From: Verrucomicrobia bacterium 12-59-8
GTDB lineage: Bacteria; Verrucomicrobiota; Verrucomicrobiae; Verrucomicrobiales; Verrucomicrobiaceae
Direction: 5' to 3'
Length of the DNA stretch: 9,191 nucleotides
NCBI GenBank assembly: GCA_002279765.1
Contig: NCCR01000167.1
Coordinates: 1-9,191, forward strand
The notes under the pieces were generated by a model. That model made no database searches, was not told the origin of the DNA, and saw only the letters and a list, made by a program, of their open reading frames with translations. The position numbers and the translations under genes were made by a program. Below are positions 1 to 9,191 of this stretch, one piece after another. How positions within the stretch are numbered: the first letter of the stretch is position 1; the number at the start of each line of letters is the position of its first letter.

Positions 1-99
1 CAAAGCGCTGCCAGAACCCCGAACCAATCCACCACTCCCAGCCGTGAGCATCATAGCTTAACTTCACACAATCCTGGCCGAAGAACGGGGTCCACCTCA
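1..99 (-). other. Sequence abutting the truncated IS630 element, possible end of a second IS
   Basis: Read on the minus strand, the IS630 transposase frame stops at a TGA at 99-97, immediately after the codons for VVMDN. The sequence that follows begins TGAGGTGGACCCCGTT and no longer matches the transposase. A sharp junction that starts with TG and supplies the stop codon is what insertion of another IS would leave, since IS3-type termini commonly begin with TG. Only about 99 bases are visible and they contain no recognisable gene. A deletion junction is equally possible. Confidence 0.25.
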
Positions 100-453
100 A
101 TTGTCCATCACCACGATGTCACCCTGCTTGAGCGTCGGGCAGAGCACCTGGCCGATGTAGGCCACGAAGGCTGCCGTGTCGACCGCTCCCGAGAGGTGCA
201 TGCAGGCAGTGGTGCCATCCAGCCGGATTGAGGAGATCATCGTCGTGCTCTGCCAGCGCCCGCAAGGGGCCGCCGCATGGAGTCTTTTCCCGCGCGGTGC
301 TCTGCCTCGAAGGCGTGTCATGTTGGTCTTGGCCCCGCTTTCATCAAGAAAGACCAGCCGCCAGGGCTCTAGTCCTCCTTGCTTGCGCTTCCAGAGGCGG
401 CGTGCTTTGTGGACGTCCTCCCGTTCTTGTTCGGCGGCGCGGAGCGTCTTTTT
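97..453 (-). pseudogene. IS630-family transposase, catalytic part (OrfB), truncated
   Basis: This is the DDE half of the same transposase. The frame opens right after a TAA at the A7 run and reads KKTLRAAEQEREDVHKARR, continuing seamlessly from OrfA after a -1 shift. The motif LVFLDESGAKTNMTR carries the first catalytic Asp. DIVVMDN at the C-terminus carries the second. The frame then stops at TGA (99-97), where family members continue (DNLxxHK-like) to the third catalytic acid. The RNase H-like fold is therefore incomplete and the product should be inactive. There is no credible start codon before an internal ATG at 321, so expression would need a frameshift from OrfA. The family call is firm, and inactivity is inferred from the missing third acidic residue. 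Confidence 0.8.
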
Positions 454-785
454 TTATATGTCAGCCCCATGTCTGCGAGGACGTAGTGGATCGCAGGCAG
501 GCTGCACTTTAGTCCGAGCGCCTCGCGCAGCTCAGCCAACGTCAGGTCGGGTTTGCGCTTGAGGTGCTGCCGGATGGCCATGCGGTGCTCGGCCACAATG
601 AGCTTCTTGCGCCCGGCGAGATGGTGCCGAGGTTTGATGCACTTGGTGTGCCTGCGCTGCTGGAGGAGCTTTTTGACCATGCCAAGGGAGACTTGAAAGC
701 GTTGCGCGATCTCATCTCGGGTGCCTTCGCCCTTGTCATAAGAGCTCAGAATTCGTTCGCGCAGGTCAAGGGAGAGGGTTGACAT
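369..785 (-). CDS. IS630-family transposase, N-terminal part (OrfA, helix-turn-helix)
   Basis: This is the DNA-binding half of an IS630 transposase. The protein opens with MSTLSLDLRERILSSYDKG and continues through DEIAQRFQVSLGMVKKLLQQ, a typical helix-turn-helix. A second helical unit (TLAELREALGL...AIHYVLADMGLTYKK) is the usual winged-helix segment before the catalytic domain. Family-like sequence ends at TYKK, where the mRNA carries seven A (plus-strand T run 449-455). The remaining roughly 26 residues in this frame are an out-of-phase tail. The natural continuation lies in the -1 frame. There is no Shine-Dalgarno sequence, and a perfect TATAAT sits only a few bases upstream of the ATG. The split is either programmed frameshifting, which is reported for some IS630 members, or decay. 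Confidence 0.8.
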   Translation of the reverse strand: MSTLSLDLRERILSSYDKGEGTRDEIAQRFQVSLGMVKKLLQQRRHTKCIKPRHHLAGRKKLIVAEHRMAIRQHLKRKPDLTLAELREALGLKCSLPAIHYVLADMGLTYKKRRSAPPNKNGRTSTKHAASGSASKED

Positions 786-790
786 ACCAC

Positions 791-796
791 ATTATA
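791..796 (-). promoter_or_regulatory. Candidate -10 box of the IS630 transposase
   Basis: On the minus strand the sequence TATAAT occurs at 796-791, with the transposase ATG at 785. There is no good TTGACA-like box 16-18 bp upstream; the position is occupied by GTGGCC or nearby AT-rich sequence. If used, transcription would begin at or next to the ATG and give a leaderless mRNA, which fits the lack of a ribosome binding site. The match could also be part of the terminal sequence of the IS. Confidence 0.35.
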
Positions 797-907
797 CCAT
801 GCATCTGAAATATGGCCACATTTTTATTTAAAATGCTCTAGGAGGGGCAGAAAGGATCATTGGTTTACCTGCAAGGGCACTGCAAACAACAGCCAACGAC
901 CGTAAAC

Positions 908-1819
908 TCAGAAGCTCGTGAAGGTGCGCAGTTCGGCAATACGCGCGGCGATGTCCGCCTGCGTGACCGTCTGCAGCTTATGCGTGCTGAAGGCTTCGCA
1001 GGTGTAGCTGGCGGTCACGCTGCCATGCACGACGGCGGTCTTGAGGTCTTCAAAGGTCGGCTTGGTCTTGCCATTGGCGGCGAGCCAGCCGGACAAACCA
1101 CCGAGGAAGGAATCTCCGGCGCCAGTCGGGTCAAAAACGCTGTGCAGAGGGTAGGCGGAGCAGGCGAAGAACTCCTCCGGCTTTTCACCGAAGAGGAAGC
1201 TGCCATGCTCACCACGCTTCACGATGACAAAGCGCGGGCCCTTGGCCTGCAGCTTGCGTCCGGCTTCCACGAGGTTGGTCGTGCCGGCGAATTCCTTGGC
1301 CTCGCCGTCGTTGATGACCAGGAGGTCGATGCGCTTGAGCACTTCGTGCAGGCGCTCGTTGGCGATGTTGATCCACAGGTCCATCGTGTCGGCGGTGACG
1401 AAATCAGCCTCGATCTGGTCCAGCATCTGCATCTGGTTGTCCGGGCTCATGTTGGCGGCCACAGCCACCTTGGCCTGCTTGGCAGCCGTGGGGAGCTTAG
1501 GCTGCCACGCCTCCAGCACGTTCAGGCCCACCTTGTGCGTGGTGCGGTTGTTCATGTCCTCGTGGTATTCGCCGGTCCAGGTGAAGGATTCACCGTCGCT
1601 GCGCTCCAGGCCTTCCAGCGTGATGCCGTGGGAGGCCAGCATGTCGAGATGCGGCTTTGGGAAATCATGACCAATCACGCCCACCAGATGGATCGGCTGG
1701 CAGAAGATGCTGGCGGCCAGCGCCGCATAGCTGGCGGAACCTCCGAGCAGGTTTTCCTGCGCATCCTGCGGGGTTTTGACATTGTCGAGGGCGACGGTTC
1801 CGGCGATGACGACTGACAT
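908..1819 (-). CDS. PfkB/ribokinase-family carbohydrate (or nucleoside) kinase
   Basis: This 303-residue cytoplasmic enzyme should transfer the ATP gamma-phosphate to a hydroxyl of a sugar, sugar phosphate or nucleoside. I chose the ATG at 1819 because the family's first strand then starts directly (MSVVIAGTVALDNV). An upstream in-frame ATG at 1900 would add 27 unrelated residues. The substrate-side double glycine is at about residues 26-27 (LLGGSASYAALAAS). N170-DGEAKEF and KRGEHGSFLF (about 201-210) fit the nucleotide-binding half. The PfkB signature DPTGAGDSFLGG is at 230-241, with the GAGD anion hole and probable catalytic base D236. The length is normal for the family and the gene looks intact. 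It stands alone, divergent from the OmpA-like operon and followed by the IS remnant, so context does not reveal the substrate. No clear Shine-Dalgarno sequence precedes the ATG. Confidence 0.9.
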   Translation of the reverse strand: MSVVIAGTVALDNVKTPQDAQENLLGGSASYAALAASIFCQPIHLVGVIGHDFPKPHLDMLASHGITLEGLERSDGESFTWTGEYHEDMNNRTTHKVGLNVLEAWQPKLPTAAKQAKVAVAANMSPDNQMQMLDQIEADFVTADTMDLWINIANERLHEVLKRIDLLVINDGEAKEFAGTTNLVEAGRKLQAKGPRFVIVKRGEHGSFLFGEKPEEFFACSAYPLHSVFDPTGAGDSFLGGLSGWLAANGKTKPTFEDLKTAVVHGSVTASYTCEAFSTHKLQTVTQADIAARIAELRTFTSF

Positions 1820-1960
1820 GAGCGTGTATTTTTGGTTAGGTAAGATGTAACAGTTATTCCTTGCCTCGCTGGCGGTGAACTTTAACGGTGCAGCGGCCAA
1901 CGCGGACGCCGATTATCGGTTCCACCTCCGTTGTGTCAATTGCCACTCCGCCACTCTTTC
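1820..1960. promoter_or_regulatory. Divergent intergenic region with a small dyad
   Basis: These 141 bases separate the PfkB-family kinase (minus) from the OmpA-like gene (plus) and must hold both sets of start signals. A perfect odd palindrome, CCGATTATCGG, lies at 1909-1919, about 40 bp before the OmpA-like ATG. It is a possible operator half or a chance dyad. Neither side has a convincing -35/-10 pair or a Shine-Dalgarno sequence. The side next to the kinase gene is AT-rich (1826-1860). Confidence 0.35.
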
Positions 1961-3235
1961 ATGCGTCTCAGTCTCTGCTTTTTCATGCTGATCCTCCTTC
2001 CCGTGGCGACGGGGGTGCATGCCTGGCTGTTTTGCCGTGAGAACCTGCCGCTCCTCACCCAGGAGGCCGTGGCGCGTCTGCAGGCCGCCGGAGTGCGCAA
2101 TCCCGTCGTGGACGTACGCTTTTTCGACATCGCCGTCAGCGGCGAGGCCCCGGACCCGCCCGCACGTCAGCAGGCGCTGGCGGCCATCCGCACGCTGGTT
2201 CCTTTGCGTTTGCTGCCCTCTGAGGAGCGCATTCACGTGGAGGCCAGTCTCAGCGCCACGCTGGAACAGAACACACTCCGCCTCAAAGGCTGGTTTCCTG
2301 CGGGGGATGAAATCAGCAATGTTCAGCGCCTGCTCGCAGAGCTGCGCCCCGATCTTGTCATCAATACCGCTGAGCTGCGCTCCGACCCCGAAGTGCGCTG
2401 GCCGCAGGGCATGCGGCCGCCCCTCACCGCCGCCCACCCCCTGCTCAAGCCGATTATCGACACCCTGCGCGTGCCTGCTGCGCTGCACATCCAGGCCAAG
2501 GCAGATGCCATCGTCCTCAGCGGCCTGCTGCCGGACACACTCTTGAAGGAAGAGCTCGTGGCCGTGCTCGCGGAAGTGGCCGGCGCACGGGAGGTGGACC
2601 CCACCGCGCTCAAGGCCAGCCCGCATGTGCTGCCTGCCGCCTTTGCCAAACCGGAGCTGCTCACCGCCTTTGTAAACAGCTTTTTCAGCCTCCCGCCACC
2701 CCGCTCCTTCGACATCCAGAGTGACGGCATCCCGCACCTCACCGGGGTCGCGACGCGGCAGTTGGAAAGTGTGTGGCTGGCGCTGCTCAGGCCCGTCACC
2801 GGCTCGGCCAAGGTGGATGCGCAGTTCACGCTGGTGCCCTCGCGGTACCATTTTCCAGGGTATCAAATTCAGTCCCAGCTCCCCCCCGCCACCCTGGACC
2901 CGCTGCGCGAGACCCTGCGTGGCTGCACGATCGTCTTTGAGGCCGGCTCCGCACACATCCCACCGCAGGAGCAGACCCGGCTCGCCACCCTGGCACCCAC
3001 CTTGCTCGCCGCTGGGCCGACTCTGGGGCTGATCATCGGCGCGCATCCCGATCCCGCCGGGCCTGAGAGCGTTGAAAAAGACATCGGCAAAGCCCGTGCC
3101 GACGCCGTGCTGTCCTTCCTCGTAGAGCAGGGGGTGCCCGCCGCAGATATCCATGCGGAGGTGTTTGATGCCGTGCCCGCCGGTTCCCCTGCGGCTCCGG
3201 CCAGTCCCCGCTCTGTCGAACTCCTCCTCAAATAG
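1961..3235 (+). CDS. Exported BON-repeat/OmpA-like envelope protein
   Basis: The product, 424 residues from the ATG at 1961, is probably anchored in or exported across the inner membrane and contacts peptidoglycan. This start places a hydrophobic segment at the very N-terminus (MRLSLCFFMLILLPVATGV); a TTG at 1931 would only add ten polar residues. Residues of about 60-300 look like repeated BON-type modules: short beta-alpha units such as NTLRLKGWFPAGDEISNVQR, AIVLSGLLPDTLLKEELV and a third degenerate unit near PHLTGVATRQLESVW. The last 105 or so residues resemble OmpA C-terminal domains: IVFEAGSA, GAHPDPAG with D364, then KARADAVLSFLVEQGV with R379. That Asp and Arg match the diaminopimelate-binding pair of the family. 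The layout recalls mycobacterial OmpATb/ArfA. It is followed after 6 bp by the H3TH protein gene, so the two are almost certainly co-transcribed. Confidence 0.75.
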   Translation: MRLSLCFFMLILLPVATGVHAWLFCRENLPLLTQEAVARLQAAGVRNPVVDVRFFDIAVSGEAPDPPARQQALAAIRTLVPLRLLPSEERIHVEASLSATLEQNTLRLKGWFPAGDEISNVQRLLAELRPDLVINTAELRSDPEVRWPQGMRPPLTAAHPLLKPIIDTLRVPAALHIQAKADAIVLSGLLPDTLLKEELVAVLAEVAGAREVDPTALKASPHVLPAAFAKPELLTAFVNSFFSLPPPRSFDIQSDGIPHLTGVATRQLESVWLALLRPVTGSAKVDAQFTLVPSRYHFPGYQIQSQLPPATLDPLRETLRGCTIVFEAGSAHIPPQEQTRLATLAPTLLAAGPTLGLIIGAHPDPAGPESVEKDIGKARADAVLSFLVEQGVPAADIHAEVFDAVPAGSPAAPASPRSVELLLK

Positions 3236-3241
3236 CCGCCC

Positions 3242-4189
3242 ATGAAATTCGACTTTGAATCCCTTTCCACCGAGCCGCTTTTCTACATGCTCATGCACAG
3301 CGGTGCGTTTGTCTGCGTCCTGGGATTCATCTTCTTCGTCGTCGGCCTGCTGTTTGGCTATGCCACCTGGGGGCGTTACAAGCGCCAGGCGCGGCAACTC
3401 CGGGGCGAGGCCGACGCCATGAAGGATGAAATTGCCAGCTTGAAACGCAAGGTGGGGGATCACTCCATCCTCTCCGGTCCCACCATCCCGATGGCCACCG
3501 AGACCATTCACATGCCCAAAAAAGAGGGCACCACAGCCGCCGAGGCCGTCCCCGTAGTCACGGCAGAAACCATCACCACGCGGGACATTCGTCTTCCGGC
3601 CACGCCCCCAGCCCCGGCTGCACCCGCGCCTGCTGAAGCACCAGCACCCGCCGCCGCCAGCCTCCCGCCTTCCGCCGCCGAACTCCCGCAGCCAGCGCCG
3701 CACGCCTCCCCCCTGGCCGCCATCATTGCCGCACCGCCCGTCAAAGCAGAGCCGGAGCCGGAAGCCGCCACACCTGCCGCCCCCGCAGCACAGGCACCTG
3801 CCGCTCCCGCAGCACAGGCACCTGCCGCCCTCCTCCCCGCGCTCACCGATCTCCTGCTGCCCGCCCTGCCTGAACTGGAGCTGCAGCCCGAACTCCATCC
3901 CAAGCTCGAACCCGAGCTTGAGACTGACACCGACCTCGATCCCAAGCTCGGCCTCATCTACAAGAACCGGCCTGCAAATGCAGACGACCTCACCGCGCTC
4001 GAAGGCATCTCGCTCGTGCTCGCCCAGCGTCTCCACGACATCGGCATCTACACCTACGCCCAGATCGCCGCCTGGGATGAAGACCACGTCAAAGAGTTCT
4101 CCGCCCGCCTCGCCTTCAAAGACCGCATCTACCGTGAGCGCTGGGTGGAGCAGGCCCGGAAGCTCGTGGCCAAGCCAGCGGCTGTTTGA
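3242..4189 (+). CDS. Membrane-anchored protein with Pro/Ala spacer and C-terminal H3TH (HhH-like) domain
   Basis: The product has 315 residues. One strong membrane helix spans about 20-40 (GAFVCVLGFIFFVVGLLFGY). A short charged coiled coil follows (45-72: RYKRQARQLRGEADAMKDEI). Then comes a low-complexity Pro/Ala-rich linker (about 116-200), an acidic Pro/Glu/Leu stretch (205-236), and a folded C-terminal domain at about 245-311. That domain (NADDLTALEGISLVLAQRL, then DIGIYTYAQIAAW and FKDRIYRERWVEQARKL) resembles the helix-3-turn-helix domain annotated as 'predicted 5' DNA nuclease, FEN1-like', widespread on envelope proteins. The hairpin glycine pattern GIG is GIS here and no nuclease residues are evident, so DNA cleavage is unlikely and a protein-interaction role is plausible. 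It is the second gene of the operon with the BON/OmpA-like protein, suggesting a partnership at the inner membrane. No Shine-Dalgarno sequence is visible; the short spacing suggests translational coupling. Confidence 0.75.
   Translation: MKFDFESLSTEPLFYMLMHSGAFVCVLGFIFFVVGLLFGYATWGRYKRQARQLRGEADAMKDEIASLKRKVGDHSILSGPTIPMATETIHMPKKEGTTAAEAVPVVTAETITTRDIRLPATPPAPAAPAPAEAPAPAAASLPPSAAELPQPAPHASPLAAIIAAPPVKAEPEPEAATPAAPAAQAPAAPAAQAPAALLPALTDLLLPALPELELQPELHPKLEPELETDTDLDPKLGLIYKNRPANADDLTALEGISLVLAQRLHDIGIYTYAQIAAWDEDHVKEFSARLAFKDRIYRERWVEQARKLVAKPAAV
3779..3826 (+). repeat. Two tandem 24-bp repeats in the Pro/Ala linker
   Basis: Copy 1 (3779-3802) and copy 2 (3803-3826) differ at one base (gccccc versus gctccc at their starts) and share gcagcacaggcacctgcc. 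Each encodes APAAQAPA in frame. The repeat is a multiple of three, so copy-number changes would lengthen the linker without breaking the protein. The near-identity at DNA level indicates a recent duplication. Confidence 0.85.
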
Positions 4190-4226
4190 GGCGCTTCTGC
4201 ATCCGCAGACGATTCACTTTCCCTGA

Positions 4227-4246
4227 GCATCCGCGCCATCGGATGC
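4227..4246 (+). terminator. Hairpin downstream of the OmpA-like/H3TH operon
   Basis: GCATCCG (4227-4233) and CGGATGC (4240-4246) form a perfect 7-bp stem with a 6-base loop, 38 bp past the operon's last stop codon. The position fits transcription termination, but there is no following T-run (the sequence goes on gatccctcc). It is at best an atypical terminator or an mRNA 3'-end-stabilising hairpin. Confidence 0.3.
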
Positions 4247-4394
4247 GATCCCTCCGACCCCTGCGCCATTCCCCGGCGCTCAGCAAGGGGCAGTTGTTAC
4301 TTAGATCGGCGAAGACGCTGGATTGCGTTGGCGGGGGGGGGCTGGCTCAGTCAGTGTTGTATTCTGAAGCATTGTGCGCAGACATGTCGTAATT

Positions 4395-4418
4395 AGCGTT
4401 TTTTATGTCGCAAACGCT
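4395..4418 (+). other. Inverted repeat upstream of the kinase gene
   Basis: AGCGTTT (4395-4401) and AAACGCT (4412-4418) are perfect inverted repeats separated by ten bases. The dyad lies about 167 bp before the first possible kinase start. It could be an operator, an RNA hairpin or chance; nothing in the sequence decides. Confidence 0.25.
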
Positions 4419-4568
4419 TCATTCAGGCCCCGCCTTCGCTTCACCTCGTCGTATTCGGATGGCTGTCTGAGGTGGCTTGGCTGCGTGCTGGAGGTCGGGT
4501 GGTGCTTGAGTGGGGAAATGCCTGCTCAAGAGGTGGCATTGTCATGAGATGGCTTCTTGCTGTAAGAT

Positions 4569-4598
4569 TTGATTCATGCTTTAAATGTTAAGAATAAT
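4569..4598 (+). promoter_or_regulatory. Candidate sigma70-like promoter of the kinase gene
   Basis: TTGATT (4569-4574) matches four of six bases of the -35 consensus. AATAAT (4593-4598) matches five of six of the -10 consensus. The spacer is 18 bp. Transcription would start near 4605, downstream of the ATG at 4585 and 13 or so bases before the in-frame ATG at 4618. The boxes are imperfect and the region is AT-rich, so this is tentative. If it is real, the protein starts at 4618. Confidence 0.3.
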
Positions 4599-7500
4599 CG
4601 ATGCCTATTGTGCGCAAATGACTTCCGAAAACGTCCCCTCATCATTTTCTCGTCATGCATTTAAAGGTCACTGGCAACCTCCGGTGATAGGGGAGATTCA
4701 GGCGCTCTTTCCTCAGTATGAAATCGTCGGTCTTCTAGGGCGAGGCGGAATGGGGGCGGTTTACAAAGGCTGGCAGCGAAGTCTTGATCGCTTTGTGGCC
4801 ATCAAAATTCTGCCACCGGCGCGCACGGATGATTCACAGTATGCCGAGCGCTTCAAACAAGAAGCCCGGTCGATGGCAAAACTCAGTCATCCCGGCATCG
4901 TGGCCGTGTTTGATGCCGGCGAGACTTCTGACGGGATGCTCTATTTCGTCATGGAGTTCATCGAAGGAACGGACGTGCAGAAGATGATCTCTGAGCAGGG
5001 CTACCTGCCTCCGGCGCACGCCATGGCCATTACGGCGCATGTGTGCGATGCGCTGCAGTATGCGCATGATCGAGGCATCATTCACCGCGACATTAAGCCT
5101 GCGAACATCATGGTCGGTTTCGATGGTGTGGTGAAGGTGGCGGATTTCGGGTTGGCGAAGCAGCAGCAGGAAGGTGTTTCAGGCATCACGGAAAGCGGCA
5201 TGATGATGGGCACTCTTCACTACATGGCCCCCGAATCCCTCATCCTGGGGGTCAGTGTAGATCATCGTGCCGATATTTACGCAGTGGGTGTCATGCTCTA
5301 CCAAATGCTCACCGGCAGGCTGCCACAGGGCCTGTTTGAAATGCCCTCACAAAAAGTGGCCGGACTTGATCCGCGTTACGATGCCGTCGTCGCCCAGGCT
5401 ATACGGGATGATCGCGATATCCGGTATCAGAGCGCCGCCGAGCTCCGTGCCGCTCTGGACAGTATCCTCACGCAGCCCGTCGTGAAAGTGGATCCCGCTG
5501 TCACACAAGCCCCGGCAGCATTGCCCACCGTCGCCAGGCCACGCCGCCCCCAGGGGTATGTGCAGCATACACCGCTGCCGGTGCAGAAAAAAAGTTCCCC
5601 AACCGGCATCCTGCTTGTGGCTGTTTTGATACTGGCAGCAGGTGGGTTCTTCGTCTTTAAAGACAAGCTGCTGCCCCAGGCCAGGCCGGCACAACCCCCC
5701 GTGACGGCTGAGGCACCGAAGGCCGATCCAGACACAACCCCCAAACCCTCTGCTGAAGAGACAGGCAAAAAGGACACTGCATCGGCGACACCAGCTCCCA
5801 CGACAGTCCGGCCTGCCAGCATGCCGGTGGTGGCTCCCAAGTCCGCCGAACCCGTGGCACCCACGCCCGCCGCTCCACAGACCGAGCTCGAAAAGCGCAT
5901 CGCAGTTCTGGAAGCTGGTTTTCAAAATGCCGCCAAGGCTGAGCCGGAGCAGGTGTTCCAGCAAAGCATGGTCGCTCTGAACAAGAGCTATCTCGCTGCG
6001 CTTGACCGCTCCCTGGCTGCCGCCACCCAGAAGGGGGCGCTGGACGACGCCGTGGCCTTGCGCGAGGAAAAACAACGCATGGAAAAGGTCTCCAGCGTCC
6101 CGAGCCTGCTGGAGGAAAGCACTCTCGTCACTCCCGTGCGAGAAGCCGTCAAAAAGTTGCGCGAAACCTACCGTGCCACCTGGCTTCAGCACGAAACCAC
6201 CAAGGCTAGGGCCATCGCCACTCTTTACGACAAATACGACCAAGCCCTTGCCGCCATCCAGGCTGATCTGACCAAGGTCAGGAAGCTCGACGAGGCGCTA
6301 ACTTTGAAACCGGTTCGTGAGCAGATCAGCCGACGGAAGTCAGAAGTGCTAAGTTTCAAGCTTGTCTCCACCGTCTCAAAAACGTTAACTAATACTCTCG
6401 ATGCTGGAGAGCCGGGTGGTTTCACCAACAGCCTGGGCATGAAGTTCGTCCCCGTTCCCGACACGGACATTCTCATGTGCATCACTGAGACAAGGCGGCA
6501 GGATTATGCCGCGTTTGCCGCCGAAGTTGATGGTGTGAAAAATTACTGGAAAAAGCAAATGTGCGGCAGCCTGCCATGCGGTGACAAAGACGACCATCCG
6601 GTGGTCGGTGTCTCGTGGGCAGAATCGAAACAATTTTGTGATTGGCTGAGCCGGAAGGAAAACCGCACCTACCGTCTTCCTAAAGATGAAGAATGGAGCA
6701 AGGCCGTTGGTGTCGCACCTTTGGAATCTCGCTCACCAGACGTGACCTTGGACATGCTGAGTCAGAAAGAGCAAACGCATTTCCCTTGGGGCGGAGTATT
6801 CCCTCCGCAAACCAGTGATCGGGCCGGCAACTATGCGGACTGCACCTGGCATGAGCAGTATCCTGACAGCGCGTACTTTGAAAACTATACGGATGGATAT
6901 GCCACGACGGCGCCTGTTGGCAGTTTCAAACCCAACAAGCTCGGCCTCTATGACATGGGCGGGAATGTGTGGGAGTGGGTGGAGGAGTGGCGCAATGCTG
7001 AACAAAAGGACCATGTGAACCGCGGAGGCGGTTTTTTCTACAATGGCGGCCGTGGCAATTTGCTTTCGTCCTCACGTGGTTTCACTCCGGCAGAAGCTCG
7101 CTATTTCAACACTGGTTTCCGGGTCGTGGTGAAAGTCAATGCGGCAACCGCAGCCACAACGCCTCCAGCGGTGCCGGTGGCCCCGCCTCCAGCCGTCACG
7201 CCTCCCACGAAGCCTGCAGATGTTCCTGCTGCTGCTACGCCGCGCACAGCAACGGGCAAGGTCAGCGTGCGCTTCGGGCCTGAAATGATCTTCTTTGGTA
7301 CCAAGGGAAAAGTAAGCGTTATTGCCAAAGACGGTACAATCTCAGATGGCGCTTGTGCTTTACCACCACCTCAGGGCACGGCGTTTGCTTCAAAGGTCTT
7401 CCCGGGCAGCATTGTCAGGACTGCTGCGGATAGTTCGGCAGACATTGCCTTGGTAGGAGGGGGCTCAGTGCGTCTGGATGTTGACTCCGAAATCAGGCTG

Positions 7501-8448
7501 CCCGAGGTGACGGGTGGCAAGCCGACGGTGGAAAGCCTGGAACTTCTCAAGGGGCGCATTTTCCTTCATGTGGACGCGTTAGATCTCGCTAAAACCGGAC
7601 GCAAAAGCCTACAGGTCAAGACACCATTTGCCTCTCTCGCACTGCAAGGTGGTAAATGTTATGCTGAGATTGGTGCCACCAATGAGACCTTCGGAGTATT
7701 CAAAGGCGCTGCTGAAATCATGGATGCCAAGGCGGTTGGCAGGGTTTTGCTTCAGGAAGAAATGGGTGCGGCGGTCAAAGTGGGGGTTGTGAGTCTTCCT
7801 CAAAGGCTGACGATGGCGCAGACCGCTTTCAGGAAGATGTGCGACCAAATCGAACTGGTCCGAACGGAATCGAGCCTGCTTCCATCGGGGGAAATGGAGG
7901 ACACTCTCAGCGATCTGTACTTTTTCGATAACAACAACATGACAAATCCACCGGGAAACTTTCTCTCATCCGAGCAGACTTCGTCTGCCCGTTCCAAGGC
8001 GGCTGGTATTTTATTGGTAATAAGAATCAACGACCTGCCTAAGCTCAGAAGCCGCACCATTCGTTACACTCCTAAAGTGGATGTGGCACGCTTAAAGGCA
8101 GAAGTTGTCGCTGTCGAGTTCGGTTGCCGGAGTGATGGCATAGCCCGCTTATCACCGGGCCTACAAGGCCAGGATCTTGATTCCGGACAGTTCGATGTCA
8201 CTCCTTTCGCCGCCGATTATGCTTACCACACGGGACGATTGATTCATCTGAAACCAGGTGATGGCCGGTTGGGAGAGTGGGTGAACACTATTTATCCACT
8301 TTATCCGCCCACTAGGGGCCTCACACTGTCACTTTTAAGGCCATCCTTTTACCTGTATATGGGGGAGAACAAAGATTACTTCTTGCCGGGCAAAAACGAA
8401 TATAAGATCGAATTCAGCCCATGTGTGATCATTACTCGCAAGCAATAG
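4585..8448 (+). CDS. Transmembrane Ser/Thr protein kinase with FGE-like and FecR-like extracytoplasmic domains
   Basis: The product is a 1287-residue Hanks-type kinase, numbered from the ATG at 4585; the ATG at 4618 (M12) is an alternative start. The cytoplasmic catalytic domain, about 45-295, looks complete: P-loop GRGGMGAVY (52-60), Lys74 in VAIK, Glu93, HRDIKPAN with Asp169, DFG at 187-189 and APE at 215-217. It is an RD kinase with a short activation segment. A membrane helix lies at about 341-358 (GILLVAVLILAAGGFFVF). A Pro/Ala/Thr-rich stretch follows (365-432), then a long charged helical, probably coiled-coil region (433-600). Next come an FGE-sulfatase/SUMF1-like domain (about 610-850) and a FecR-like domain (about 935-1065: FPGSIVRTAADSSADIAL, VKTPFASLALQGG). 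The last 190 residues match nothing I know. The FGE-like part keeps HPVVGVSW, YRLPKDEEW, GLYDMGGNVWEW and GFRVV, but Tyr819 and Gly824 stand where the enzyme's two cysteines would be, so it is probably a binding module. The likely role is transmembrane signalling by phosphorylation; substrates are unknown. Confidence 0.9.
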   Translation: MLRIIDAYCAQMTSENVPSSFSRHAFKGHWQPPVIGEIQALFPQYEIVGLLGRGGMGAVYKGWQRSLDRFVAIKILPPARTDDSQYAERFKQEARSMAKLSHPGIVAVFDAGETSDGMLYFVMEFIEGTDVQKMISEQGYLPPAHAMAITAHVCDALQYAHDRGIIHRDIKPANIMVGFDGVVKVADFGLAKQQQEGVSGITESGMMMGTLHYMAPESLILGVSVDHRADIYAVGVMLYQMLTGRLPQGLFEMPSQKVAGLDPRYDAVVAQAIRDDRDIRYQSAAELRAALDSILTQPVVKVDPAVTQAPAALPTVARPRRPQGYVQHTPLPVQKKSSPTGILLVAVLILAAGGFFVFKDKLLPQARPAQPPVTAEAPKADPDTTPKPSAEETGKKDTASATPAPTTVRPASMPVVAPKSAEPVAPTPAAPQTELEKRIAVLEAGFQNAAKAEPEQVFQQSMVALNKSYLAALDRSLAAATQKGALDDAVALREEKQRMEKVSSVPSLLEESTLVTPVREAVKKLRETYRATWLQHETTKARAIATLYDKYDQALAAIQADLTKVRKLDEALTLKPVREQISRRKSEVLSFKLVSTVSKTLTNTLDAGEPGGFTNSLGMKFVPVPDTDILMCITETRRQDYAAFAAEVDGVKNYWKKQMCGSLPCGDKDDHPVVGVSWAESKQFCDWLSRKENRTYRLPKDEEWSKAVGVAPLESRSPDVTLDMLSQKEQTHFPWGGVFPPQTSDRAGNYADCTWHEQYPDSAYFENYTDGYATTAPVGSFKPNKLGLYDMGGNVWEWVEEWRNAEQKDHVNRGGGFFYNGGRGNLLSSSRGFTPAEARYFNTGFRVVVKVNAATAATTPPAVPVAPPPAVTPPTKPADVPAAATPRTATGKVSVRFGPEMIFFGTKGKVSVIAKDGTISDGACALPPPQGTAFASKVFPGSIVRTAADSSADIALVGGGSVRLDVDSEIRLPEVTGGKPTVESLELLKGRIFLHVDALDLAKTGRKSLQVKTPFASLALQGGKCYAEIGATNETFGVFKGAAEIMDAKAVGRVLLQEEMGAAVKVGVVSLPQRLTMAQTAFRKMCDQIELVRTESSLLPSGEMEDTLSDLYFFDNNNMTNPPGNFLSSEQTSSARSKAAGILLVIRINDLPKLRSRTIRYTPKVDVARLKAEVVAVEFGCRSDGIARLSPGLQGQDLDSGQFDVTPFAADYAYHTGRLIHLKPGDGRLGEWVNTIYPLYPPTRGLTLSLLRPSFYLYMGENKDYFLPGKNEYKIEFSPCVIITRKQ

Positions 8449-8526
8449 CGCTGAGCCTCATCATGGTTGTCTTGTTCCCCCCTGGCAGATCACGACGCCA
8501 ATCCTTTCCAAGTGAATCGAGGGTTC

Positions 8527-8608
8527 CGACGGCGGCTTGAGGACAAGCCGCCCCGGGCGCTCGCATGCCCAGCGCGAGGTTGGGCGCTTGGTCCTCCAAG
8601 CGCCGTCG
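8527..8608. repeat. Nested GC-rich palindrome, REP-doublet-like
   Basis: Two perfect 9-bp stems with 4-base loops lie side by side: GGCGGCTTG/CAAGCCGCC with loop AGGA (8531-8552), and GGCGCTTGG/CCAAGCGCC with loop TCCT (8583-8604). The loops are complementary. The whole block is also one imperfect inverted repeat: the outer arms 8528-8544 and 8591-8607 pair along their length with two single-base bulges. The DNA or RNA can thus form either two short hairpins or one long one. It lies between convergent genes, the usual place for REP/BIME-type elements and bidirectional terminators. There is no clear T-run on either side. Confidence 0.65.
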
Positions 8609-8671
8609 AGCGTCGCCACGCGCCGCTTCCCGGAAATCGGTTTCGCAAAACGCTAGATCGCCATGGCAGCA

Positions 8672-8692
8672 ACACCGGACCGCAGGCGGTGT
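8672..8692 (-). terminator. Possible hairpin just after the foldase stop codon
   Basis: ACACCG (8672-8677) and CGGTGT (8687-8692) are inverted repeats separated by nine bases, directly adjacent to the minus-strand stop codon (8696-8694). On the minus strand a weak TTGCTGCC follows rather than a U-tract. The position suggests termination or mRNA end protection, but the structure is weak. Confidence 0.25.
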
Positions 8693-8693
8693 C

Positions 8694-9191
8694 TCAGCCC
8701 AGCTTGGCGATCGCCACGCGCGCAGCTTCGTGCTGCTTCTTGAACCAAGCCTGGAACAGACTCCGGCGCTCGCGGTTGGTAAGATCGTTCAGTTGGTTCT
8801 TGCGCACCTCGACTGCGTCAGGGCGTTTGCGCAGTTCCTTGGCGCTGACGTAAACGAGCAGCGTGCCTTTGTCGAAATCCACTGCACGGGAGATGCTGCC
8901 AACGGCCGTTTTGGCGGCTTCCTGGGCGATTTCAAAGCCGTTGGGCACTTCCTGCGGCGGATTGGCGGTGTCGATGTCCGGCAGGGGCTCAAGGGTCAGC
9001 TTCTTCTCCTTCACCAGATCCTCGATCTTCTTGCCCGCCTTCAGGCCTTCGCTCAAAGCCAGACGTGCTTCATTCACGGCCTTGCTGCGGGCCTCGTCCG
9101 CCTTCTGGCCCACCAGCACCTCTTTGATCTTGCCGGTCACTTCGGCCAGCGTCTGCTGCTTGGGCTCCTCGAATTTGGTGACATCGAAGAC
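8694..9191 (-). CDS. Probable PpiD/SurA-type periplasmic foldase, C-terminal part (partial)
   Basis: Only the last 165 residues are in the window; the frame is open to its right edge, beginning VFDVTKFEEPKQQTLAEV, so the 5' end lies outside. The visible part starts with a charged helical stretch (KIKEVLVGQKADEARSKAVN), then EGLKAGKKIEDLVKEKKLTL. It continues with AAKTAVGSISRAVDFDKG and LLVYVSAKELRKRPDAVEVR, ending in an aromatic/basic helix (RSLFQAWFKKQHEAARVAI). This order (helical segment, 'exceeds x-G-x-S' strand motif, VxVxxxxxR-like strand, closing helix) is that of the C-terminal region of PpiD/SurA-like chaperone-isomerases, which fold exported proteins. The parvulin catalytic domain, if present, is upstream and unseen. 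The gene is convergent with the kinase gene and ends in a hairpin-rich gap. Confidence 0.55.
   Translation of the reverse strand, partial: VFDVTKFEEPKQQTLAEVTGKIKEVLVGQKADEARSKAVNEARLALSEGLKAGKKIEDLVKEKKLTLEPLPDIDTANPPQEVPNGFEIAQEAAKTAVGSISRAVDFDKGTLLVYVSAKELRKRPDAVEVRKNQLNDLTNRERRSLFQAWFKKQHEAARVAIAKLG

Follow-up and report, generated by a model that had tools for sequence, protein, structure and literature searches.

Why should a FecR domain, commonly read as a regulator of sigma factors, be found in one chain with a Ser/Thr kinase? The question is raised by contig NCCR01000167.1 of Verrucomicrobia bacterium 12-59-8, of which the whole stretch analysed (positions 1 to 9,191; 9,191 nucleotides, hereafter the window) contains an open reading frame (ORF) for a receptor kinase. 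In this protein a Ser/Thr kinase, a transmembrane (TM) helix, a Pro-rich stretch, a stalk, a domain of the formylglycine-generating enzyme (FGE) type, a FecR domain and a C-terminal domain follow one another (Table 1). On balance, it appears to be a modular single-pass receptor Ser/Thr kinase whose FecR co-sensor, normally a separate protein, was fused in cis. The co-sensor is called normally separate because the most likely source of the FecR cassette is a group of FecR proteins which, in relatives, are encoded mostly beside genes of CHASE2 cyclases. A conserved kinase-TM output module would be joined here to exchangeable extracytoplasmic modules, arranged as two cassettes behind the TM helix, namely the stalk with a seemingly dead FGE fold and the FecR domain with a predicted beta-sandwich, each of which is known in free-standing form with a signal-like N-terminus.

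Domain layout, predicted topology and fused relatives

The initial annotation had proposed a single protein with this series of domains, and the ORF and the Pfam search agree with it. Pkinase (PF00069, residues 45-248, E 7.2e-51), FGE-sulfatase (PF03781, residues 631-848, E 2.4e-29) and FecR (residues 944-1043, E 1e-7, 32.7 bits against a cut-off of 24) were all found above their Pfam cut-offs in the hidden Markov model search of the three segments. The glycine loop (GRGGMGAVY), VAIK, HRDIKPAN, DFG and APE are all present, so the catalytic motifs of the Hanks-type domain are intact as judged from the sequence, and chains of PknB were the best-scoring solved chains for the kinase. A hydropathy scan showed a single peak with a 19-residue mean of at least 1.8, near residues 340-358. 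Residues 300-342 hold six K/R against one D/E, and the N-terminus is predicted to lie inside because of this excess before the TM helix. The kinase is thus predicted in the cytoplasm and residues 360-1287 outside, on the basis of hydropathy, charge bias and the signal-bearing free relatives of both ectodomain halves; signal peptides, like the helical stalk, were called by eye. The Pfam, hydropathy and charge results are consistent with the earlier view of a one-protein transmembrane receptor kinase with FGE and FecR outside.

Residues 900-1287 were searched against 5.8 billion proteins, and among the 7989 candidates with the most common words, which were scored, two relatives were found. P0001 is N-terminally truncated, being cut inside the kinase, and P0002 is a full-length protein with kinase, two FGE domains and FecR but without the stalk. 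As P0002 begins at Met12 of the window protein, the true start of the latter may be at 4618. P0001 and P0002 each have an additional FGE domain, which is absent from the window protein. The order TM, FGE, FecR and C-terminal domain is common to P0001 and P0002, each of which comes from a separate contig; hence the order is not an assembly join, and a chimera was ruled out. From the architecture search, the kinase-FGE-FecR-sandwich order was recovered in the one full-length relative, which does not share the stalk, and in the one truncated protein. Residues 930-1070 used alone as a protein query returned zero matches, and as this query also missed the known P0001 and P0002, it is uninformative on the rarity of the fusion.

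Identity to P0001 and P0002 was found to be 84-88% over the kinase and TM helix (the kinase overlap with P0001 being 43 residues), 45-58% in the Pro-rich linker, 51-80% in FGE, 52-55% in FecR and 40-52% in the C-terminal domain, and the stalk is 83% identical in P0001. These values suggest an output part that is nearly constant and a sensor part that is variable. The C-terminal domain had been described as an unknown domain; it is now tentatively predicted to be a beta-sandwich that may resemble carbohydrate-binding modules. The alignment A5 gave zero matches up to E 1 in the PDB sequence search.

Origin of the FecR cassette

A free-standing protein of the FecR and C-terminal unit, P0003 (428 aa, signal-like N-terminus), covers 100% of this unit with E 7.7e-108 and 39% identity, and the FecR and beta-sandwich pair is kept together in the three fused proteins and P0003. 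The FecR tree was inferred with IQ-TREE from 47 domains and 129 columns, with the root not inferred and with FecR matches shorter than 75 residues dropped. Of its 23 rows labelled CHASE2, that of G008:C8 comes from a contig with no CHASE2, and two others lie about 10 kb and about 17 kb away from CHASE2; the row G055:C275, which has neither partner, was left ungrouped, and the FecR matches with neither partner in G056:C15 and G055:C34, as well as those of G005:C57 and G006:C9, are outside the tree. The FecR domains of the window protein, P0001, P0002 and P0003 form one clade (99/95), which is nested in a clade of 15 rows (99/98) together with 11 others, ten from CHASE2 contigs and one not. P0003 branches outside the three fused domains, as would be expected if a free-standing ancestor had been fused once, though the root was not inferred.

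The gene neighbourhoods of FecR were counted in 12 genomes, namely the nine kinase-found genomes except G007 and four others (G050, G055, G056 and G059) chosen for their FecR matches to the window protein. There were 83 FecR and 20 CHASE2 matches, and 24 of the 83 FecR matches lie within 10 kb of CHASE2 (11/53 in the kinase-found genomes and 13/30 in the FecR-picked ones) against a crude chance estimate of 0.5%. Conversely, 14 of the 20 CHASE2 matches have a FecR within 10 kb. Where FecR genes occur in tandem (three loci), the leading FecR ORF in every case starts 9-31 bp after a CHASE2-guanylate cyclase ORF on the same strand. In the five genomes mapped for sigma factors, 15 of 39 FecR matches are within 10 kb of CHASE2 and at least 19 have a Sigma70_r2 match no more than 1.5 kb away, with none in both groups and five in neither among the matches listed; the sigma count comes from 21 places chosen by eye near FecR, also among the matches listed. 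Bar one already counted, the sigma match nearest to a CHASE2-near or unassigned FecR is 12.7 kb away, again among the matches listed.

These data bear on the precedent invoked by the initial annotation, in which FecR relays an envelope signal to an extracytoplasmic function (ECF) sigma factor. The window protein could work as in FecR-FecI, receiving its signal from an outer-membrane TonB-dependent transducer, with the kinase in place of the anti-sigma output. We regard this as rather unlikely, since all 19 ECF-linked FecR domains (19/19) are found across a supported branch (98/93), there is no anti-sigma domain among the Pfam matches of the window protein up to E 1, its predicted cytoplasmic part being the kinase, and neither a TonB receptor nor a sigma factor was found above cut-off in the five neighbouring ORFs scanned. 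Two points weigh on the other side. In the approximately unbiased (AU) test, p was 0.104 for a grouping of the fused FecR domains with those linked to sigma factors, for which reason this grouping is disfavoured yet not rejected, and long branches meet in the FecR tree. The assignment of the window FecR to the CHASE2-associated rather than the sigma-linked lineage is therefore supported but not proven. The best tree and the missing anti-sigma domain speak against a sigma-factor relay, without the AU test rejecting it. The predicted structure of a standalone CHASE2-linked FecR was of low confidence (mean predicted local distance difference test score 43.1).

It could also be argued that the protein is an ordinary kinase-FGE receptor in which FecR and the beta-sandwich serve as structural or anchoring spacers without a sensing role. 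Paralogs having different or no recognised modules at that place would agree with this, as would the low conservation of the FecR and C-terminal parts, which are among the least conserved (40-55%). On the other hand, the pair is kept in three fused proteins and one free-standing protein, and relatives of the FecR part are encoded directly behind CHASE2-cyclase genes, which makes mere spacers improbable.

Some loci near CHASE2 have arrangements of their own. In L070:5288-8335, L071:4211-7378 and L072:4739-7936, a Ser/Thr kinase, CHASE2 and a guanylate cyclase are joined in one chain of 1015-1065 aa. A gene for a FecR-TPR protein shares the contig with such triple fusions. In L072 it is the immediate neighbour and has the same orientation, and the distance is about 5 kb in L071 and about 17 kb in G006:C16. 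These FecR-TPR proteins also match the TonB-receptor barrel, above the cut-off in one of the three, and the kinase-CHASE2-cyclase fusion is possibly a dual-output receptor with an outer-membrane partner. In L078 (G056:C6:100001-114000), a FecR-FGE ORF has three separate CHASE2 matches nearby, lying in frames both short and long, and the locus seems to have decayed or been rearranged.

The FGE domain and the receptor-kinase family

In a sequence search of the PDB, the FGE domain of the window protein matched FGE, sulfatase modifying factor 2, PorK and PvdO. Its last cysteine is residue 753, and none is found between 753 and 924. FGE needs a catalytic cysteine pair near the C-terminus, Cys336/Cys341 in the human enzyme. 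Since cysteines are missing where FGE has this pair, the domain is likely a binder and not a catalyst, and on its sequence its role is probably binding. There were 34 FGE matches in the loci, of which 29 carry the motif used in the script, and 27 of these 29 (a set to which the window protein belongs and in which one gene, its loop cut, appears twice) have fewer than two cysteines in the loop. It is very improbable that the domain is enzymatically active, as a formylglycine generator or as some other oxidase, with the protein modifying an envelope target and reporting on it, despite the significant matches to FGE structures and PF03781, and an active FGE was rejected on the missing C-terminal cysteines and the cysteine-poor loops.

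The stalk and FGE were also found without a kinase in all eight ORFs fetched for this (414-524 aa), which were chosen from short frames among the genome matches, and seven of them carry a signal-like segment by eye. In both L104 and L106 such a free-standing ORF has a kinase-stalk ORF no more than about 5 kb away, so that action in trans is possible for the FGE cassette as well. In paralogs (L062, L057, L058, L060 and others) the framework RGG...SSxR...GFR of the FGE domain is kept and the loop between is highly variable, as expected for a putative binding surface. Because these loops vary so strongly, diversification of a C-type-lectin-like (CLec) domain by retroelements was considered, and it was set aside as no reverse transcriptase match was found by Pfam in the six window ORFs scanned. 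In the relatives, six reverse transcriptase matches were found in three of six genomes; those of G004 and G006 lie off the contigs of the kinase matches, among the matches listed, and the third genome, G059, is outside the kinase search.

Alignment of the juxtamembrane and TM segment with genome contigs gave 10 loci from 101 candidate stretches, and all ten are labelled Verrucomicrobia, Verrucomicrobiales, Verrucomicrobiaceae or Prosthecobacter. When the whole genomes of nine relatives were compared with the window protein, each gave between 7 and 59 matches at E<=1e-40; the figures count matches, several of them sometimes in one frame, and not genes. In the fetched loci the same kinase is joined to zero to three FGE domains (a single case, broken or split between frames, has four pieces), and the ectodomains are variable, with modules other than FGE occurring; PF06439, of which DUF1080 is presumably the older name, was found in sister proteins of the window kinase. 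Seven receptor-kinase genes stand in tandem in G003:C145 (L056, L057), with similar kinases and very different ectodomains, in which Pfam recognised FGE and 3-keto-disaccharide hydrolase domains together with sub-threshold RCC1-like matches.

Neighbouring genes, known systems and significance

The Pfam scan covered the kinase and five neighbouring ORFs within the 9.2 kb window (Table 1). No sigma factor, anti-sigma factor, phosphatase, CHASE2 or TonB receptor was found above cut-off in the five neighbours, which bears out the earlier remark that no sigma-factor or phosphatase gene is seen alongside, and the Pfam scan found no CHASE2 domain in the kinase protein itself. The earlier idea of a self-contained system has to be set beside the relatives, where the companion FecR is often encoded by a gene of its own. 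The 138-aa ORF looks, by its matches, like the N-terminal part of a transposase.

Table 1. Features of the receptor-kinase gene and of the neighbouring ORFs, in window coordinates
Feature	Position	Strand	Basis or remark
Whole receptor-kinase ORF, 1287 aa	4585..8448	+	ORF list; start possibly 4618 (Met12)
Hanks-type Ser/Thr kinase domain, residues 45-300	4717..5484	+	PF00069 and motifs
Juxtamembrane segment and TM helix (~residues 340-358)	5485..5676	+	Hydropathy peak, K/R-rich N side
Pro-rich linker, residues 365-433, predicted outside	5677..5883	+	Composition
Helical stalk, residues 434-600	5884..6384	+	Alignment; helicity judged by eye from sequence
FGE-sulfatase domain, residues 612-850	6418..7134	+	PF03781, PDB sequence matches, Cys list
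FecR domain, residues 900-1088, closest to CHASE2-associated lineage	7282..7848	+	
C-terminal domain, residues 1089-1287, predicted beta-sandwich, carbohydrate-binding-module-like	7849..8445	+	
138-aa ORF	369-785	-	Sub-threshold helix-turn-helix matches including Sigma70_r4 (18.7 bits against cut-off 24.1)
OmpA-type envelope protein, sub-threshold BON match	1931-3235	+	Upstream pair, first gene
Protein with sub-threshold helix-hairpin-helix matches near C-terminus	3242-4189	+	Upstream pair, second gene
Rotamase_2 (peptidyl-prolyl isomerase) ORF	8694-9191	-	Match barely above cut-off; runs off window end, convergent with kinase gene

In terms of mechanism, the FGE and beta-sandwich domains may bind an envelope or environmental ligand, either a glycan or a protein. 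FecR and the stalk would then pass a conformational or oligomerisation change through the TM helix, and the kinase would phosphorylate itself and cytoplasmic targets.

The FGE fold is presumably of the C-type-lectin-like type. By homology of its kinase and TM helix, the window protein belongs with FGE-bearing paralogs to the kinase-FGE receptors, a large family and a known kind, since Ser/Thr kinases of Planctomycetota and chlamydial Pkn1 have already been described. As presented in passages of these sources, the planctomycetal kinases have a single TM helix, and their SUMF1/FGE and DUF1080 domains are mostly or exclusively in the periplasm (PMC11032199), Pkn1 combines a kinase with an FGE domain (PMC3581485) and chlamydial kinases occur with NirV/DUF323 (PMC1262709). 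The window protein shares the kinase and FGE-type domain with these receptors of the Planctomycetes-Verrucomicrobia-Chlamydiae group and differs in adding FecR and a beta-sandwich to the same chain; FecR is unmentioned in the main text, as distinct from the supplements, of PMC11032199 and PMC1262709. CHASE2 adenylate cyclases of Campylobacterota with a FecR companion (PMC9239204) and the BiofilmReg operon of Burkholderia, with LysM-FecR and a CHASE2 histidine kinase (PMC5192318), resemble it, as far as the portions cited describe them, in pairing a FecR-domain protein with a membrane signalling enzyme and not with a sigma factor. In these operons FecR is separate and CHASE2 is on the enzyme, whereas in the window FecR is in the kinase chain. 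With the anti-sigma regulators FecR/PupR the protein shares the fold of the FecR domain (match to 6ovk) but has no anti-sigma domain and no sigma partner above cut-off, and it falls on the opposite tree branch (AU p 0.104). The cyanobacterial kinase-CLec proteins, diversified by retroelements according to the passages cited (PMC7517822), also join a Ser/Thr kinase to a C-type-lectin-like domain; the loops vary among the window paralogs too, whereas the six window ORFs scanned match no reverse transcriptase. Among the papers listed by searches of the open-licence literature for kinases with FecR or FGE, no title or abstract opening describes the kinase-FGE-FecR combination. Each part is known, and it is the combination that is rare and new, not the kind of system.

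Taken with its relatives, the window protein points to FecR having a second role beside cyclases and kinases, independent of sigma factors. By the gene-fusion argument, the fusion in cis also hints at the enzymes with which the separate FecR proteins communicate. More tentatively, the FecR/beta-sandwich unit might be a general sigma-independent co-sensor in Verrucomicrobia, acting in trans with CHASE2 cyclases and kinase-CHASE2-cyclase fusions and here hard-wired into a receptor kinase. On that tentative reading, the fusion of cassettes would equip one conserved kinase-TM unit with envelope sensors that can be exchanged, much like the diversification of eukaryotic receptor kinases. The finding further suggests a way in which the large families of receptor kinases in Verrucomicrobia may be assembled, from a near-constant kinase-TM unit and cassettes which also exist separately.

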